DNA of 64,000 bases from Ideonella paludis. GTDB taxonomy: Bacteria; Pseudomonadota; Gammaproteobacteria; Burkholderiales; Burkholderiaceae_C. Positions within the stretch are counted from its first letter, which is position 1. Each line of letters starts with the position of its first letter. Below the pieces are notes generated by a model. The model saw nothing but the letters and a program-made list of their open reading frames with translations, ran no database searches and was not told where the DNA came from. Below, one piece after another: positions 3,444 to 46,241 of the stretch. The translations under genes and the position numbers were made by a program. The DNA is taken from NCBI RefSeq assembly GCF_018069865.1, contig NZ_JAGQDG010000008.1, positions 186,001 through 250,000 on the forward strand. The letters are read 5' to 3'.

Positions 3444-4007
3444 TCAGCGCAGCGAGTAGGCGCGGCCGTCGGTGGCGGTGGCGTTGCTGTCCATCACAAA
3501 CTGGCCTGACGTCGTGTCATAGGCCCAACCCCCCGCGCTGCCCGACGCGGTGAGAGGTGCCCCCGTCGAGGTGACCCTGATCTCGGTGACCTCGCTGCCG
3601 CGCTGGTTGATGGGGTCGTCCGGAATGCCTCTGCGCACATAGGGGCCGTACTTGAAGGCGCCGCCGCCTTGTGTGCAGGCTTGGCCTGCGGCATTGGTGT
3701 AGAGCGTGAGCTGATCGACAAAGGCCTGCGCGCTGTCCGCGGCGCCGGTGGCGGCGTTGCCTGCCGCACAAGTCCCGCCACTGCTGGCCTTATCGCCCGG
3801 GTAGCTGCCGTGCTGCGCCTTGTACAGCTCAATGGCATTGCGCATGGCCGCCAAGTTGGCGTCCAGAGCGGCCTCTTGGGTGTCGCTGGTGGCACTGTTG
3901 AATTGCGGGATCACGATGGCCGCCAAAACGGCCAAGATGATGACCACGATCAGCAATTCCACCAGGGTAAAGCCACGTCGCAGCACGTGGAGGGCAGTGT
4001 TTCTCAT
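3444..4007 (-). CDS. mshA: MSHA-type major pilin
   Basis: A 187-residue type IV prepilin. The leader MRNTALHVLRRG is followed by FTLVELLIVVIILAVLAAIVIPQF, with Glu5 and the Ala/Val/Ile-rich polymerisation helix of major pilins. The head contains NAIELYKAQHGSYPG, typical of the pilin alpha1/beta transition, and a Cys pair. The ATG at 4005-4007 has GGAG eight bases upstream; an open frame extends 35 codons further but has no support. A 135-base gap separates it from the mshG-like gene and could hold its own promoter, as expected for an abundant structural subunit. Downstream genes are tightly packed minor pilins. Confidence 0.85.
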   Translation of the reverse strand: MRNTALHVLRRGFTLVELLIVVIILAVLAAIVIPQFNSATSDTQEAALDANLAAMRNAIELYKAQHGSYPGDKASSGGTCAAGNAATGAADSAQAFVDQLTLYTNAAGQACTQGGGAFKYGPYVRRGIPDDPINQRGSEVTEIRVTSTGAPLTASGSAGGWAYDTTSGQFVMDSNATATDGRAYSLR

Positions 4008-4142
4008 TTCTAGGGCTCCGCAATTCTTGAGGCAAAGGGCGCAAGATGCCTCAGAGGGGCTATCGGCGCTCTGGGCGCAAGGCTTGAGTGCAAACAGGGT
4101 TTGGCCATGCAAAAGGTCGCAAATGGCAGCATCTTCATGGCT

Positions 4143-5270
4143 TTAGCGGATGGCCCGGCTGAGCTTGAAGATGGGCAGGATCAAAGAGGCCACGATCAGG
4201 CCGATCAGGGCGCCCATCACCAAGAGCATGACTGGCTCGGCTAAGCGGGACACCAGGGCCAGACGTTTGGCCAACTCACGCTCATAGTGTTCGGCAATGC
4301 GCGTCATCACCGTGGCCAGGCTGCCGGTGCGCTCGCCGGTGTGGATCATCTGCTGCACCATGGGCGGCACAAAGCTGCTGCGCTCAAAGCCCTGGGCCAG
4401 GCCCGAGCCCTCGGTGACTTGCTGGCGCAAGTCCAGCAGAAAGCCGCGAAACACGCGATTGCCGACCAGGTCTTGGCACGCCTTCAGGGCTTCCACCAGC
4501 GGCACGCCGTGGCTCAGCGACATGCCCAAGACCCGCAAGGTTTGGCTGAGGTAGACCTGCACGTAGATCTGGCGCAGGCCCGGAAAGCTGAGCTTGAAGC
4601 GGTCGATGCGCAGCCGGGTGTCTTCCTGTCGCCACAGCAAGACCGCCAGCAAGCCCAGCGTGGCCGCCCCGACCAGCAGCCAAGGCCAGTGATGGCGCAG
4701 CAGCTCTGAGAGCTGCATCAAGAAGCGCGTGCTCCAGGGCAGTTGGTCGTGGATTTGCTCGAACAGCGCCGCAAACTTGGGGAAGACGCCCACCAGCACA
4801 AAGATGATGGTGCCGGTGGAAAACAGCGTCAGAAAGGCGGGATAGGACAGGGCCGAGGTGAGCAGGCTGCGCAGGCGCTCGCTCTTTTCGTCCAGGTCCA
4901 GCAATTGCCGCAGCACCTGCGGCAAAAAGCCGCCACGCTCGCCGGCCGCCACCAAGGCCACATAGGTGGCCGGGAAGAAGCCGGGGTGCTGGGCCATGGC
5001 CTGAGACAAGGGCTGGCCTTCCAAGACATCGCTGAGCAGGCGCTGCAGCACGGCGGCCATGTCGGGGTCGTGCTCTTGTTCGCTCAGCTCACGCAGGCCC
5101 TCATGGAGGCTGACCCCGGTCTCTTGCAAGAGCAGCAGCCTCTCAGTGAACAGCAGGCGCTCGGTCAAGCCCAGTTGTCGCCAGCGCAGACCTTGAAGAC
5201 CTGCTTGTGGAGGGGCGACGGACTCCACTCGCGTGCTGCTGGCGCTGGCTTGATGAAGTTCGATGGCCAT
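4143..5270 (-). CDS. mshG: Type II/IV secretion inner-membrane platform protein, MshG/GspF family
   Basis: A 375-residue polytopic inner-membrane protein with two repeated GspF domains. The first (about residues 40-160) contains SALSYPAFLTLFSTGTIIFVLVGVFPKF; the second (about 240-365) contains LSQTLRVLGMSLSHGVPLVEAL and ends LVMGALIGLIVASLILPIF. Both have the GERTGSL/GERGGFL-type loops of the family. In type IV pili this protein is the platform on which the extension ATPase acts. It begins 16 bases after the ATPase stop codon and precedes the major pilin gene, so it belongs to the same operon. N-terminal residues 1-30 look unstructured. Confidence 0.88.
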   Translation of the reverse strand: MAIELHQASASSTRVESVAPPQAGLQGLRWRQLGLTERLLFTERLLLLQETGVSLHEGLRELSEQEHDPDMAAVLQRLLSDVLEGQPLSQAMAQHPGFFPATYVALVAAGERGGFLPQVLRQLLDLDEKSERLRSLLTSALSYPAFLTLFSTGTIIFVLVGVFPKFAALFEQIHDQLPWSTRFLMQLSELLRHHWPWLLVGAATLGLLAVLLWRQEDTRLRIDRFKLSFPGLRQIYVQVYLSQTLRVLGMSLSHGVPLVEALKACQDLVGNRVFRGFLLDLRQQVTEGSGLAQGFERSSFVPPMVQQMIHTGERTGSLATVMTRIAEHYERELAKRLALVSRLAEPVMLLVMGALIGLIVASLILPIFKLSRAIR

Positions 5271-40929: not shown

Positions 40930-41631
40930 ATGTGGATCCCTCCTGGTCACGGTCGGTGGAGTGTTTTGTGCCTGAGTCTTGCGGCGCCTTGCGGCTGGGC
41001 GGCCCAAACACAAGCCAGCGTGATGTTGGCTTCACCCACGGTGATTCGAGGCGTGCAGGTCGGGGCCGAGGCCCCGCGCTTGGGCGTGGTGGTGGATGTT
41101 TACGGCCCAGAAGGCTGGTCGGTCGGCGCGGCCTTGGATGTCAGCGTGTCCAGGAGTGATCAGGCGCGGGAGCGGTCCGGCGCCTTGAGGTTTGCAGCGC
41201 CGCTCTGGCGCCGCGACGGCGCAGAGATTGGGCTCTCGGCGCAGTTGCAGGCGTTTGATGGCCTGCCGACCAGCCGTCGTTGGAACTACCTGACGCTGGG
41301 CGCCACCGCCCAAAGCGGGCCGTGGGCGCTGTCTTGGTTTGTGGTGCCGTCGTCGCTGGCGGCCGAACGGACGCTGTTTGCGGGGCAGGCGGTCGACCTC
41401 GCGTGGCAGCATCCCTTGACCGGGGTCTGGAGCCTGGATCTCAGTGGCGGCTGGGTCGATGTTCGAACGGCCAGGCCTGGGCGCTACCTTCACGGCCAAA
41501 TCGGCGTGGTGGGCAGCCTGGGACGCGCGGAATTCAGAGCGGCCTGGGGGCGCACGGATGCGGCGGGGCAGCGTTTGTTCGGCCCCCGTGCTCAGGACGG
41601 CTATCGACTGTCCCTGGCTTGGGCGCTCTAG
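40930..41631 (+). CDS. Exported beta-rich protein, probable outer-membrane barrel
   Basis: A 233-residue protein with a signal peptide ending near CGWAAQTQA. The mature part alternates hydrophobic residues in strands of about 8-12 residues with short turns (for example PRLGVVVDVYGPEGWSVGAALDVSV, GHYLHGQIGVVG-like strands, RAEFRAAWGR) and ends SLAWAL, in keeping with small outer-membrane barrels of the TIGR02001/nutrient-porin type. The family is not certain. It stops 63 bases before the ECF sigma gene on the same strand and may belong to its regulon. Confidence 0.6.
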   Translation: MWIPPGHGRWSVLCLSLAAPCGWAAQTQASVMLASPTVIRGVQVGAEAPRLGVVVDVYGPEGWSVGAALDVSVSRSDQARERSGALRFAAPLWRRDGAEIGLSAQLQAFDGLPTSRRWNYLTLGATAQSGPWALSWFVVPSSLAAERTLFAGQAVDLAWQHPLTGVWSLDLSGGWVDVRTARPGRYLHGQIGVVGSLGRAEFRAAWGRTDAAGQRLFGPRAQDGYRLSLAWAL

Positions 41632-41694
41632 CCTTGCAACTTTTGGGGTGGCGGCAGGAACTTACCCACCAAACCTCCTGAACACTTCGTCACC

Positions 41695-42282
41695 ATGTCC
41701 GTCCTTCACGTCGCACGCCGGCTTCTGCCCTGGGGAAAAGGGGATGAGGACGATGCATTGCTGCAGGCGGTCGCCCAAGGTGACAAGCAGGCCTTGCAGG
41801 CCTTGTATCGGGCCTATCACCCGCGCTTGGTGAGGTTCTTGTCTCGCCATATTCGGCGTGATGACTTGGCTGAAGAAGTGATCAACGATTGCTTTTGGGT
41901 GGTGTGGCAGCAAGCGGCGCAGTTTCGGGGCGGATCACGAGTTTCGACCTGGATCTTCGGCATTGCTTATCGCTTGACCATGAAGGCTTTGCGCGACCGT
42001 GGCGACGAGCCGCTGGCCGACCCGGAAGGCGATGATCATCATGATGCCTGTGACGCCGATGCCCAAAGAGAGCAGCAAGACTGGTTGAACAAAGGCTTGG
42101 CCACCTTGACCGAGGAACAGCGTGTGGCCTTGCAGCTGGCCTATGAGCAGGGCTTGGACATGGAGGAGATTGCTGAGGTCATGGCCTGCTCGGTCAGCGC
42201 GGTCAAGTCCAGGCTGTTTCACGCGCGCACCAAGTTGCGTCACGTGCTGCCGCAGATCGCCAACCCTGGCAAAGCCGCTTAG
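41695..42282 (+). CDS. ECF RNA polymerase sigma factor
   Basis: A 195-residue sigma-70 family factor. Region 2 is LVRFLSRHIRRDDLAEEVINDCFWVVWQQAAQFRGGSRVSTWIFGIAYR, recognising the -10 element; region 4 is LTEEQRVALQLAYEQGLDMEEIAEVMACSVSAVKSRLFHARTKLR. An acidic loop (DPEGDDHHDACDADA) separates them. It heads a three-gene run with an anti-sigma and a subtilase; 14 bases separate it from the anti-sigma gene. A GGAACTT motif lies at 41657-41663, but no well-spaced -10 partner was found. Confidence 0.92.
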   Translation: MSVLHVARRLLPWGKGDEDDALLQAVAQGDKQALQALYRAYHPRLVRFLSRHIRRDDLAEEVINDCFWVVWQQAAQFRGGSRVSTWIFGIAYRLTMKALRDRGDEPLADPEGDDHHDACDADAQREQQDWLNKGLATLTEEQRVALQLAYEQGLDMEEIAEVMACSVSAVKSRLFHARTKLRHVLPQIANPGKAA

Positions 42283-42296
42283 AAGGAACAGACCCT

Positions 42297-42941
42297 ATGC
42301 AGCAACAAGACACCCACGCCCAGGTCTGGGCCCAGATTCCCTGGCTGGTCAATGGGCGGGCCAGCCCAGCGCAGCGGGAGCAGGCAGAGCAGCATCTGCA
42401 GAGCTGCCCGGATTGCCAAGCCGAACTTGATCGCCAACAGGCACTGGCGCACGCCTTGAATACCACGCCCAGCAGGCTCTCTGTTGATGTCGACAAGGGC
42501 TGGATGGCGCTTTCCGCGCGCCTGCCGGCCCAGGCGGTGAAGCCTCAAGCCTCGGAGAATGCGGGAGTGTCTCGGCGCTGGGTGCGCTGGCTCGGCAGTT
42601 TGGTGGCCATCGAGGCACTGGCGGTGGCTGCGCTGGCGGTGGTCATCATCAAGCCCACTGTCCATCGTGGGCCTGACGAAGGTTTCGTGACGCTGAGCTC
42701 TCCCATTGCCGTGTCCAAGGCGGTCCGGTGGCGTGTGCTGCCTGACCCCACCCAATCCTTGGCGCAGTGGCAGGCTAATCTGGCGGCGCATCAGTTGCAG
42801 GTCGTGGGCAGCCCGTCCTCGGCGGGGGTGTGGAACTTGGGCTGGGCAGGCCCGCAAGCCCCCGACGTTGAGGCCGTCGCTCAGGCCTTGCGCGCCAGCC
42901 CAGGGGTGCGTTTTGTAGAGGTGATGCCGCATGTGCAGTGA
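42297..42941 (+). CDS. Anti-sigma factor with zinc-finger domain and I9-propeptide-like C-terminus
   Basis: A 214-residue membrane anti-sigma factor. The N-terminal cytoplasmic part has the ZAS signature His33-x3-Cys37-x2-Cys40 (EQHLQSCPDCQAEL). Residues about 97-118 form one membrane helix (WLGSLVAIEALAVAALAVVII). The periplasmic end, about residues 143-212, reads WRVLPDPTQSLAQWQANLAAHQLQVVG ... GVWNLGW ... VEAVAQALRASPGVRFVEVMP, which looks like the beta-alpha-beta-beta-alpha-beta pattern of subtilase propeptide (I9) domains, including the LRxxPGVxxVE signature. It overlaps the subtilase gene by 11 bases. This layout suggests the periplasmic domain is bound or cut by the subtilase; that is inference. 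Confidence 0.82.
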   Translation: MQQQDTHAQVWAQIPWLVNGRASPAQREQAEQHLQSCPDCQAELDRQQALAHALNTTPSRLSVDVDKGWMALSARLPAQAVKPQASENAGVSRRWVRWLGSLVAIEALAVAALAVVIIKPTVHRGPDEGFVTLSSPIAVSKAVRWRVLPDPTQSLAQWQANLAAHQLQVVGSPSSAGVWNLGWAGPQAPDVEAVAQALRASPGVRFVEVMPHVQ

Positions 42942-44256
42942 TGCTGGCCTGCGCCGGCTGTTGGCCGCGCTGCTGTGCTGCTGGGGGCTGAGCGCCGCTT
43001 TCGGGCAAAGCCCGGCCGAGAGCGCCCAGGCGGGTGTGCAGAGCCCGGGAGCGCGTACGCAAGGTTGGGCGGATGAGGCGGGCGGGGACGCGTTCTTGCT
43101 GCTCTTGGACAACCCTGTACACAGCCAAGCGGTGCAGGCCGGTTCTTGGGGCGCGCTGGGCTATCGGCAGCGTCGGGCCTATACCGTGCACCCGCAGGTG
43201 GAGGCGCTGGCCGCTGCTCTGGTGGCGGAATACAAATTGGTCGTGCTGGATGCTTGGCCCATGGACCCCTTGCGGGTGCACTGTCTGGCGGTCCGGTTCC
43301 GTGACGCAGCATCGGCTGCAGACGCTTTGGTGCAGTTGCGCCGGGACCCTCGCGTCCAGCAATTGCAGCGTCTACAGGACTTTGCCGTCCAGGGCACGCC
43401 GCCAGCGGCCAGTTTGATGGCGCCCAGCGCGTTGATCGACGACAGGCTGGATGTGCGCTCGGCCCACCAGCGCGCGCGTGGCGAGGGTGTGCGTGTGGCT
43501 GTGGTGGATACGGGCATGGATGTGGCACACCCGGCGCTGGCGGATGCGGTGTTGGAGGCTCGGAACTTTGTCGATCAGGACGAGGCGCAGTTCCGCAGAG
43601 ACCAGCATGGCACGCAAGTGGCCGGCCTGCTGTCTGCCAGGCCACGCGCCGACGTCGGCGTGGTGGGGCTGGCCCCGGCTGCAGGCTTGTTGGCCTATAA
43701 GGCCTGCTGGGTGAAGGCGCCGGCCACTGAGGTGCGCGCCCAATGCAACACCTTGACCTTGGCCAAAGCCCTGGTGGCCGCCTTGGATGCCCGGGCCGAT
43801 GTGCTCAACCTCAGCCTGTCTGGCCCACCGGACCCGCTCTTAGAGCGGCTGCTGGGAGTGGCCCTCACGCGCGGCGTTGCCGTCTTGGGGGCGATACCGC
43901 CGGATGGCCGCAAGACGGGCTTTCCGCTGAGTGTCCCTGGCGTGTTGGCGGTTGACCGAACCGAGACAGCGCGGGCGCAGGCGCCGGGTGAGTTGCGTGC
44001 GCCGGGTGAGGATGTGATGACGCTCAAGCCCGGCGGTGGCGGCGGCTTTGCCAGTGGCTCGTCCATGGCCACGGCGCAGGCCAGTGCGGTGGCGGCCCTG
44101 TTGCGCAGCGTGCGCCCCAAAGCCTCGGTGGCGCAGCTGACGCAATGGATGACAGCGGCCAGTCCGCACGGCGTGCTGAACGCCTGCTTGGCCTTGCGGC
44201 TGGCCGGAGAGCCGGTGGTCTGCCGGGGCGACACGGGTGTGCTTGCCAAACCATGA
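42931..44256 (+). CDS. Divergent S8 family subtilase-like exported protein
   Basis: A 441-residue exported protein: signal peptide (LLAALLCCWGLSAAFGQ), prodomain-like region about 84-153 (YTVHPQVEALAAALVAEYKLVV ... LVQLRRDPRVQQLQRL), then a subtilase domain. Triad residues are Asp193 (VAVVDTGMDVAHP), His226 (DQHGTQVAGLL) and Ser378 (FASGSSMATAQASA). The oxyanion Asn normally found in AAGN is missing; the corresponding strand reads GVAVLGAIPPDGR. The MATP after the serine is also altered to MATA. It may be a weak protease or a non-catalytic binding module. It is the last gene of the sigma / anti-sigma operon and ends before a terminator. Confidence 0.85.
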   Translation: MCSDAGLRRLLAALLCCWGLSAAFGQSPAESAQAGVQSPGARTQGWADEAGGDAFLLLLDNPVHSQAVQAGSWGALGYRQRRAYTVHPQVEALAAALVAEYKLVVLDAWPMDPLRVHCLAVRFRDAASAADALVQLRRDPRVQQLQRLQDFAVQGTPPAASLMAPSALIDDRLDVRSAHQRARGEGVRVAVVDTGMDVAHPALADAVLEARNFVDQDEAQFRRDQHGTQVAGLLSARPRADVGVVGLAPAAGLLAYKACWVKAPATEVRAQCNTLTLAKALVAALDARADVLNLSLSGPPDPLLERLLGVALTRGVAVLGAIPPDGRKTGFPLSVPGVLAVDRTETARAQAPGELRAPGEDVMTLKPGGGGGFASGSSMATAQASAVAALLRSVRPKASVAQLTQWMTAASPHGVLNACLALRLAGEPVVCRGDTGVLAKP

Positions 44257-46164: not shown

Positions 46165-46241
46165 TGGCAGGGGAGGAAGGACTCGAACCCTCGCATGTCG
46201 GAATCAAAATCCGATGCCTTGACCAACTTGGCGACTCCCCT
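46165..46241 (-). tRNA. tRNA-Gln (TTG)
   Basis: A 77-base cloverleaf with encoded CCA. Acceptor arms AGGGGAG and CTCCCCT pair over seven bases; the anticodon arm is TCGGA-TTTTGAT-TCCGA with anticodon TTG; the T-arm is GAGGG-TTCGAGT-CCTTC. It sits between ispE and prs, the usual place in this lineage. Confidence 0.95.

Follow-up and report, generated by a model that had tools for sequence, protein, structure and literature searches.

The stretch of DNA analysed here (hereafter the window) comprises 64,000 nucleotides of Ideonella paludis (NCBI RefSeq assembly GCF_018069865.1, contig NZ_JAGQDG010000008.1, positions 186,001 to 250,000 of the forward strand). Sequence analysis showed that it holds a closely packed predicted operon for an extracytoplasmic function (ECF) sigma factor, a zinc-binding anti-sigma factor and an exported subtilase, with a conserved promoter and an adjoining gene for a putative TorF/Gcw_chp-like porin, all on the plus strand. 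The sigma factor (195 amino acids, 41695..42282) matches PF08281, PF04542 and TIGR02937 (Sigma70_r2/r4, ECF superfamily). After a gap of 14 nt follows the membrane anti-sigma factor (214 amino acids, 42297..42941), in which a zinc-binding anti-sigma domain (residues 9-41, 42321..42419; zf-HC2, PF13490, 28.2 bits against a cut-off of 22.2), a single predicted transmembrane stretch (residues 100-118, 42594..42650; Kyte-Doolittle mean 2.52, modelled helix 93-118) and a propeptide-like, presumably periplasmic domain with a short C-terminal tail (residues 143-209, 42723..42923) succeed one another. Its open reading frame overlaps by 11 nt that of an S8 subtilase (441 amino acids, 42931..44256; PF00082, Peptidase_S8, 75.3 bits against a cut-off of 21.8), which carries a signal peptide-like N-terminus and a prodomain of its own. 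A sequence-only reading of this DNA had placed the sigma factor, anti-sigma factor and subtilase in one run, and the open reading frames and domain matches agree with it; the porin, promoter and regulon described below go beyond that reading.

The sequence-only reading had also proposed to look for the anti-sigma and subtilase genes in other genomes, where they were indeed found together. In a subtilase-led scan of named genomes, restricted to the best 80 of 439 candidate loci, full sigma/anti-sigma/subtilase sets were present at 67 of the 80. Three contigs (at loci L048, L060 and L102) begin at the subtilase and are uninformative upstream. Among the 77 informative loci the anti-sigma gene lies directly upstream of the subtilase in 72, 67 of them with the sigma gene too; it also adjoins the subtilase where the locus is cut by a contig end (L034, L035, L101) and where the sigma gene is missing or broken (L104, L105). 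At three loci from Paraburkholderia or Trinickia (L029, L033, L063) the genes are near one another but separated or reversed, and at two more from these genera (L030, L068) no anti-sigma gene was found within the locus. By record title, the subtilase-led loci belong to Burkholderiales, Rhodanobacter/Dyella/Luteibacter/Xanthomonas, Nevskia, Methylococcaceae and Nitrosomonas, among others, and a few metagenome bins are labelled with other phyla. With start codons chosen by script, the subtilase start overlaps the anti-sigma stop in 51 of 71 cases (exactly 4 nt in 47), and the sigma and anti-sigma genes overlap in 48 of 65 (43 by 4 nt).

Searches led by the anti-sigma factor, and hence independent of the subtilase, gave a similar picture. 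At E≤1e-20, 274 genomes of the class yielded 15 places in 14 genomes, with an S8 gene next in 10 (window included); three of the others are close to where their contig stops (L223, L226, L228) and two (L218, L229) have no such gene in the stretch examined. Together with the frequency of full sets in the subtilase-led scan, this ruled out chance adjacency. Within the family, 24 of 150 genomes had an anti-sigma match. A subtilase adjoins the anti-sigma gene at the Ideonella locus and 14 others (L003-L016), a caspase-like gene takes its place at L017, L020, L021, L025 and L026, and neither was found at the other seven places, one of which (L027) is truncated at the edge of its contig. The Ideonella genome itself contains this anti-sigma factor and one weak N-terminal match at another place.

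The two ends of the anti-sigma factor are strongly conserved. The HxxxCxxC zinc motif (H33, C37 and C40) is invariant in 69 of 69 anti-sigma factors, and PF13490 matched 68 of them at E≤1. At the other end, 'LRASPGVRFVEV' contains the signature singled out by the sequence-only reading, and this signature is real: L198, R199 and E208 are near-invariant among the 69 sequences. AlphaFold modelling with these sequences (the alignments took 68 of the 80 loci for the anti-sigma factor and 75 of 80 for the subtilase) gave a mean pLDDT of 83.9 and a whole-protein pTM of just 0.44. Residues 143-209 were predicted confidently, with a block pLDDT of 89-97, as a beta-alpha-beta-beta-alpha-beta domain (strands 143-149, 167-169, 179-183 and 204-209; helices 155-164 and 191-200), which is the strand and helix pattern anticipated before modelling. 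The tail past the last strand, counted from the E208 column, has a median of 8 residues (range 4-16). Subtilase propeptides end in a similarly short tail.

Among the Pfam families listed, the nearest to this domain is PF22148 (Fervidolysin_NPro-like). The window anti-sigma factor matches it at E 0.13 with 13.1 bits, below the gathering cut-off of 21, which at least two relatives exceed (L007, 25.0 bits; L012, 23.9 bits). PF22148 matched 25 of the 69 anti-sigma factors at E≤1 (best 9.3e-6) and 11 of 17 C-terminal domains searched in isolation (best 3.2e-6); apart from zf-HC2, every other family listed (25 of 33) matched at most 2 of the 69. Inhibitor_I9 (PF05922), the family suggested by the sequence-only reading, was neither among the four families reported for the window anti-sigma factor at E≤10 nor among the 25 of 33 listed for the 69 sequences. 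When anti-sigma profiles were compared with the whole subtilase, three runs on overlapping data each aligned the anti-sigma C-terminus to the prodomain of the subtilase itself (P 0.00065-0.0016, but at probabilities of no more than 16-28%). The modelled fold is likewise not unrelated to propeptides, which appear among the listed Foldseek matches (2z56_B, TMt 0.73; 1spb_P, 0.65; 9fid_D, 0.65; 3cnq_P, 0.64). This fold is compatible with a propeptide but common rather than specific, so the fold search was dropped as proof of identity, and the sequence profiles are more specific. The propeptide-like layout of the proposed sensor domain thus stands, whereas the I9 name is not supported: judged by sequence, the domain resembles a subtilase propeptide and comes nearer to the Fervidolysin type.

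The subtilase encoded downstream resembles pro-subtilisins in its predicted structure. Its model (mean pLDDT 87.3) found pro-subtilisin E and pro-Tk-subtilisin as best Foldseek matches in the PDB, and the prodomain (residues 54-154, 43090..43392) was modelled with strands 54-60, 103-111, 116-123, 144-147 and 150-154 and helices 88-100 and 126-138. The catalytic triad of Asp193 (43507..43509), His226 (43606..43608) and Ser378 (44062..44064) is invariant in 95 of 95 family subtilases. The oxyanion-hole position, which is Asn in ordinary subtilases, is occupied by Pro324 in the window protein (43900..43902), and Asn is found at this column in 0 of 95 sequences (Pro 57, Ala 14, Gly 10, Arg 5, Ser 3, Lys 2, Thr 2, Glu 1, His 1). 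Alignments with subtilases from the PDB and with 12 further ones encoded in the Ideonella genome set the position of this column, and all 12 of the latter have Gly-Asn there; the 15 PF00082 matches in that genome comprise the window gene itself, two matches within a single gene (L127) and one, C16:527709, that was left out, with 12 genes compared. In subtilisin, replacing the oxyanion Asn reduces turnover by roughly 100-1000 fold and affects binding little. Cys occurs at a lipobox-like column in 56 of the 95 subtilases, the window protein not among them. All 95 sequences share three other cysteines, one in the prodomain (C118) and two in the catalytic domain (C259 and C272), an odd count for an exported protein.

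The gene upstream of the sigma factor (40930..41631) encodes a protein without a Pfam or NCBIfam match, which we classify from its sequence relatives as a putative outer-membrane porin related to the TorF/Gcw_chp family. A profile of the porin family, built from nine relatives and iterated without the window protein, matched that protein at 4.2e-28 (84.4 bits) in a one-sequence database; a match at 5.2e-36 was obtained with a profile whose iteration was free to take in the window protein. The profile iterated without it matched at 82 of 94 loci, which makes the putative porin a fourth conserved member, and 81 of 83 matches lie within 400 nt of the sigma or subtilase gene (sigma side, 49 on the same strand and 10 opposite; subtilase side, 20 and 2). 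Without iteration, and with the nine training loci counted in, the profile found 77 loci out of 94 at E≤0.01 and 73 at E≤0.001, and it left the window protein unmatched. Searched alone with phmmer at E≤0.01, the window protein found seven loci (best 1.1e-6), against none for reversed open reading frames. Three porin relatives (L028, L096, L086) pass PF09694, and L096 also passes TIGR02001.

A conserved motif, AACCTTT-N12-GGCACTCAC, was found ahead of the sigma gene by aligning the upstream regions of 21 loci, mostly from Rhodanobacter/Dyella/Luteibacter/Xanthomonas. In the window the predicted ECF-type promoter is GCAACTTTT-N12-GGAACTTAC (41636..41665; full copy GCAACTTTTGGGGTGGCGGCAGGAACTTAC) and ends 29 nt ahead of the sigma start codon. 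A position-weight matrix scored above the 1% null level, set by base shuffling, in 72 of 84 sigma upstream regions, 44 of which had been used to build it. The core pattern occurred in 30 of the 84 against 0.0 in shuffled sequence, and once in the window against 0.08 expected. Textbook ECF promoter patterns, also tried, stayed at or close to shuffle level and were rejected.

The strict motif also defines a candidate regulon. In 20 named genomes it occurred at 35 places in 18 genomes, against one place for the reversed pattern. The operon itself accounts for 14 of these (partly the training set of the motif), and 21 lie outside it, some of them ahead of genes for cytochromes or surface sugars. 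Nine of the 35 places precede an fdtA-like gene paired with a hexapeptide acetyltransferase (PF05523 and PF00132, each confirmed in one member), three an HPr-kinase-like gene and four other genes (one a peroxiredoxin), while five form the facing side of divergent pairs, in one case ahead of a multiheme cytochrome. In Rhodanobacter panaciterrae, a multiheme c-type cytochrome gene (L205, 1710-2909) lies behind the motif and diverges from an fdtA-like gene that has a separate copy of it. Because open reading frame calling sometimes took an overlapping frame, gene names at such sites rest on clustering and follow-up checks. Within 14 family genomes the strict motif occurred at four places, two of them operon promoters, against none for the reversed control, and 11 of the 14 had no match. 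The Ideonella genome has a strict copy on the minus strand of contig C11 (L179, 5419-5446), ahead of three tandem genes for small, seemingly exported proteins that match no Pfam family (3549-5257), which diverge from a peroxidase-family (PF00141) gene; in genome G143 the motif precedes a gene for an exported-looking CXXCH protein. Allowing one mismatch gave five places in the Ideonella genome against 11 in the control, so degenerate matches are uninformative. The specificity of the promoter makes the regulon directly testable across many Burkholderiales and Lysobacterales.

Similar anti-sigma domains were also found in sister operons. An order-level anti-sigma search covered 300 genomes and found 27 places, spread over 26 of them. 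ECF/anti-sigma operons with a similar propeptide-like domain and a caspase-like Peptidase_C14 gene occur at L108 (4884-5795), L109 (6090-6911) and L111 (6697-7659); three C14 partners were confirmed by Pfam and more by profile. Two further genes, at L168 (2190-3692) and L170 (4041-5615), look C14/caspase-type, although the caspase profile matches the first weakly (4.9e-05) and the second not at all. Longer, proline-rich subtilases stand beside the anti-sigma gene at L156, L157, L161, L164, L165, L166 and L171, and in all seven, as far as read (L164 is partial), the oxyanion AAGN is kept. Among the 10 S8 partners of the anti-sigma-led search, a Gly-Asn was seen by motif in five and unseen in three (window included), and the motif was unlocated in two.

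Taken together, these results suggest a model of a four-part trans-envelope ECF system, which we regard as close to an even call. In this model, the periplasmic subtilase, often a lipoprotein, would dock on the propeptide-like domain of the anti-sigma factor much as a catalytic domain docks on its own propeptide, and would serve as a low-turnover, holding partner rather than an efficient site-1 protease. With its oxyanion hole lacking Asn, the subtilase may hold the domain or turn it over slowly instead of destroying it, acting as a co-regulator in the way that RseB does for RseA. A periplasmic signal, perhaps passing through or acting on the porin, would alter the docking; the anti-sigma factor would then be cleaved, either slowly by the subtilase or by general site-1 and site-2 proteases, and the freed sigma factor would transcribe the operon that encodes it, along with a few envelope genes. 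The part played by the subtilase could be protective or activating. We infer the docking, the holding or slow role, the porin link and the self-regulation from the patterns above. Of the two actions that the sequence-only reading had offered for the subtilase, binding to the anti-sigma domain is plausible from the sequences, while cutting it is weakened by the missing Asn, even though the triad is intact.

Several observations weigh against this model. The window anti-sigma factor itself falls under the PF22148 cut-off, and 44 of the 69 anti-sigma factors have no PF22148 match at E≤1. A Foldseek search of the PDB with the anti-sigma model returned no match at E≤0.001, and the best 50 of 937 matches at E≤10 mix ribosomal S6, isomerases and ACT domains with subtilase propeptides. 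Sequence searches of the PDB found no relative of the C-terminal domain (best E 0.18 with C-domain profiles); those with the whole protein recovered relatives of the N-terminal anti-sigma part alone. In the subtilase, the invariant triad speaks against a pure pseudoenzyme; since the triad is kept, some catalysis is probably still under selection. The oxyanion assignment also has its exceptions, with Gly-Asn one residue past the column in L095 and later in the loop in eight others, and with Asn beside the column in some sequences (for example L065 and L077), where the loss is alignment-dependent. Similar anti-sigma domains stand beside C14 peptidases as well, which indicates that a subtilase is not the only partner the domain can have, and several order-level matches have no recognised peptidase alongside. 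A mirror-tree test on 76 sets was not decisive, with partial correlations of 0.22 between the anti-sigma C-terminal domain and the subtilase catalytic domain, 0.01 with the subtilase prodomain and 0.30 with the sigma factor.

The first alternative takes the subtilase for an active site-1 protease under the control of a signal, with the anti-sigma factor being cut at the propeptide-like domain. We consider this unlikely. Conservation of Asp-His-Ser in 95 of 95 sequences would fit such an enzyme, as would the sister operons that pair a similar domain with Asn-keeping subtilases (7/7 read; 5/10 by motif), but the absence of Asn from the oxyanion column in 95 of 95, set against its presence in 12 of 12 same-genome subtilases, argues the other way, and a protease made in stoichiometric amounts with its substrate would tend to destroy the anti-sigma factor constitutively unless latched. 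Less probable still is that the subtilase is a mere output of the sigma factor, with the ferredoxin-like domain sensing something else and its likeness to propeptides being convergent or a functionless inheritance. While the common fold and unspecific fold search, the caspase-like neighbours and the indecisive mirror-tree test would all allow this, the specific Pfam prodomain matches in relatives, the repeated alignment to the partner's own prodomain and the reading-frame overlap of the anti-sigma and subtilase genes point away from it. Folding or export feedback, in which the domain would be a trans-propeptide gauging unprocessed or misfolded subtilase or porin and the sigma factor would report secretion status, suits a sigma factor that apparently regulates itself and has genes for an exported partner and a porin next to it, but is improbable, as the subtilase has its own prodomain and needs no trans chaperone, and the identified regulon genes are not folding factors.

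The sister operons allow the docking model to be widened. On this broader reading, ECF anti-sigma factors with a propeptide-like sensor that docks a dedicated exported peptidase would form a widespread class of envelope-signalling systems, with a partner specific to each clade (oxyanion-deficient S8, Asn-bearing S8 or C14); in the clade of the window, the S8 protein would act either as a timer with slow turnover or as a holding receptor, would be linked to a porin, and would control a small regulon made up of genes for exported cytochromes and surface sugars. We put this forward tentatively, leaning somewhat against it. Subtilases with and without the oxyanion Asn, together with caspases, beside similar anti-sigma domains offer a natural comparison of holding and cutting. 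If the docking model is true, it would represent a new sensing principle, in which an anti-sigma factor has taken over a prodomain-like module as its receptor end and shares its operon with the enzyme partner of that module.

Parts of this arrangement recall known systems. The gene order of sigma factor, anti-sigma factor and periplasmic co-regulator is that of RpoE-RseA-RseB, although a subtilase takes the third position here; the Pfam families listed for these proteins include neither RseA nor RseB, and the NCBIfam RseA match to the N-terminal half of the window anti-sigma factor is very weak (E 0.033, 14.3 bits, cut-off 165). Fec-type cell-surface signalling likewise joins an outer-membrane protein, an inner-membrane anti-sigma factor and an ECF sigma factor across the envelope, but through a TonB receptor rather than a TorF/Gcw_chp-like porin, and no FecR family was among those listed (25 of 33) for the 69 anti-sigma factors. 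The Csp proteins of Clostridioides also use a subtilase fold in signalling with catalysis lowered or lost; they act in spore germination and have lost triad residues, whereas the subtilases described here retain the triad and lack the oxyanion Asn. In SigV-RsiV of Bacillus, the membrane anti-sigma factor RsiV is itself the receptor for lysozyme, its extracellular part binds the hydrolase, and release is by binding rather than catalysis, since catalytically inactive lysozyme also activates (PMC4183432). In contrast to the system described here, with its propeptide-like domain and a putative ligand encoded in the same operon, RsiV has DUF4163/DUF3298 and binds a foreign enzyme.

The sequence-only reading knew of no ECF system built in this way. 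No description of this system was found among the literature records searched either; these did not include the 2021 ECF re-classification, where a named group may exist. A subtilase context as such is known: the ECF54 group has subtilase/CHAT genes near the ECF sigma gene and proteolysis has been proposed, but it is described there without an anti-sigma factor in context, whereas here a membrane anti-sigma factor belongs to the operon (PMC8999054). Within the ECF/anti-sigma kind, the gene set looks like an undescribed envelope signalling system.

Searches for Sigma-70 promoters and terminators gave nothing exceeding shuffled sequence. Rfam identified one tRNA (46168-46241), which is unrelated to the gene set.

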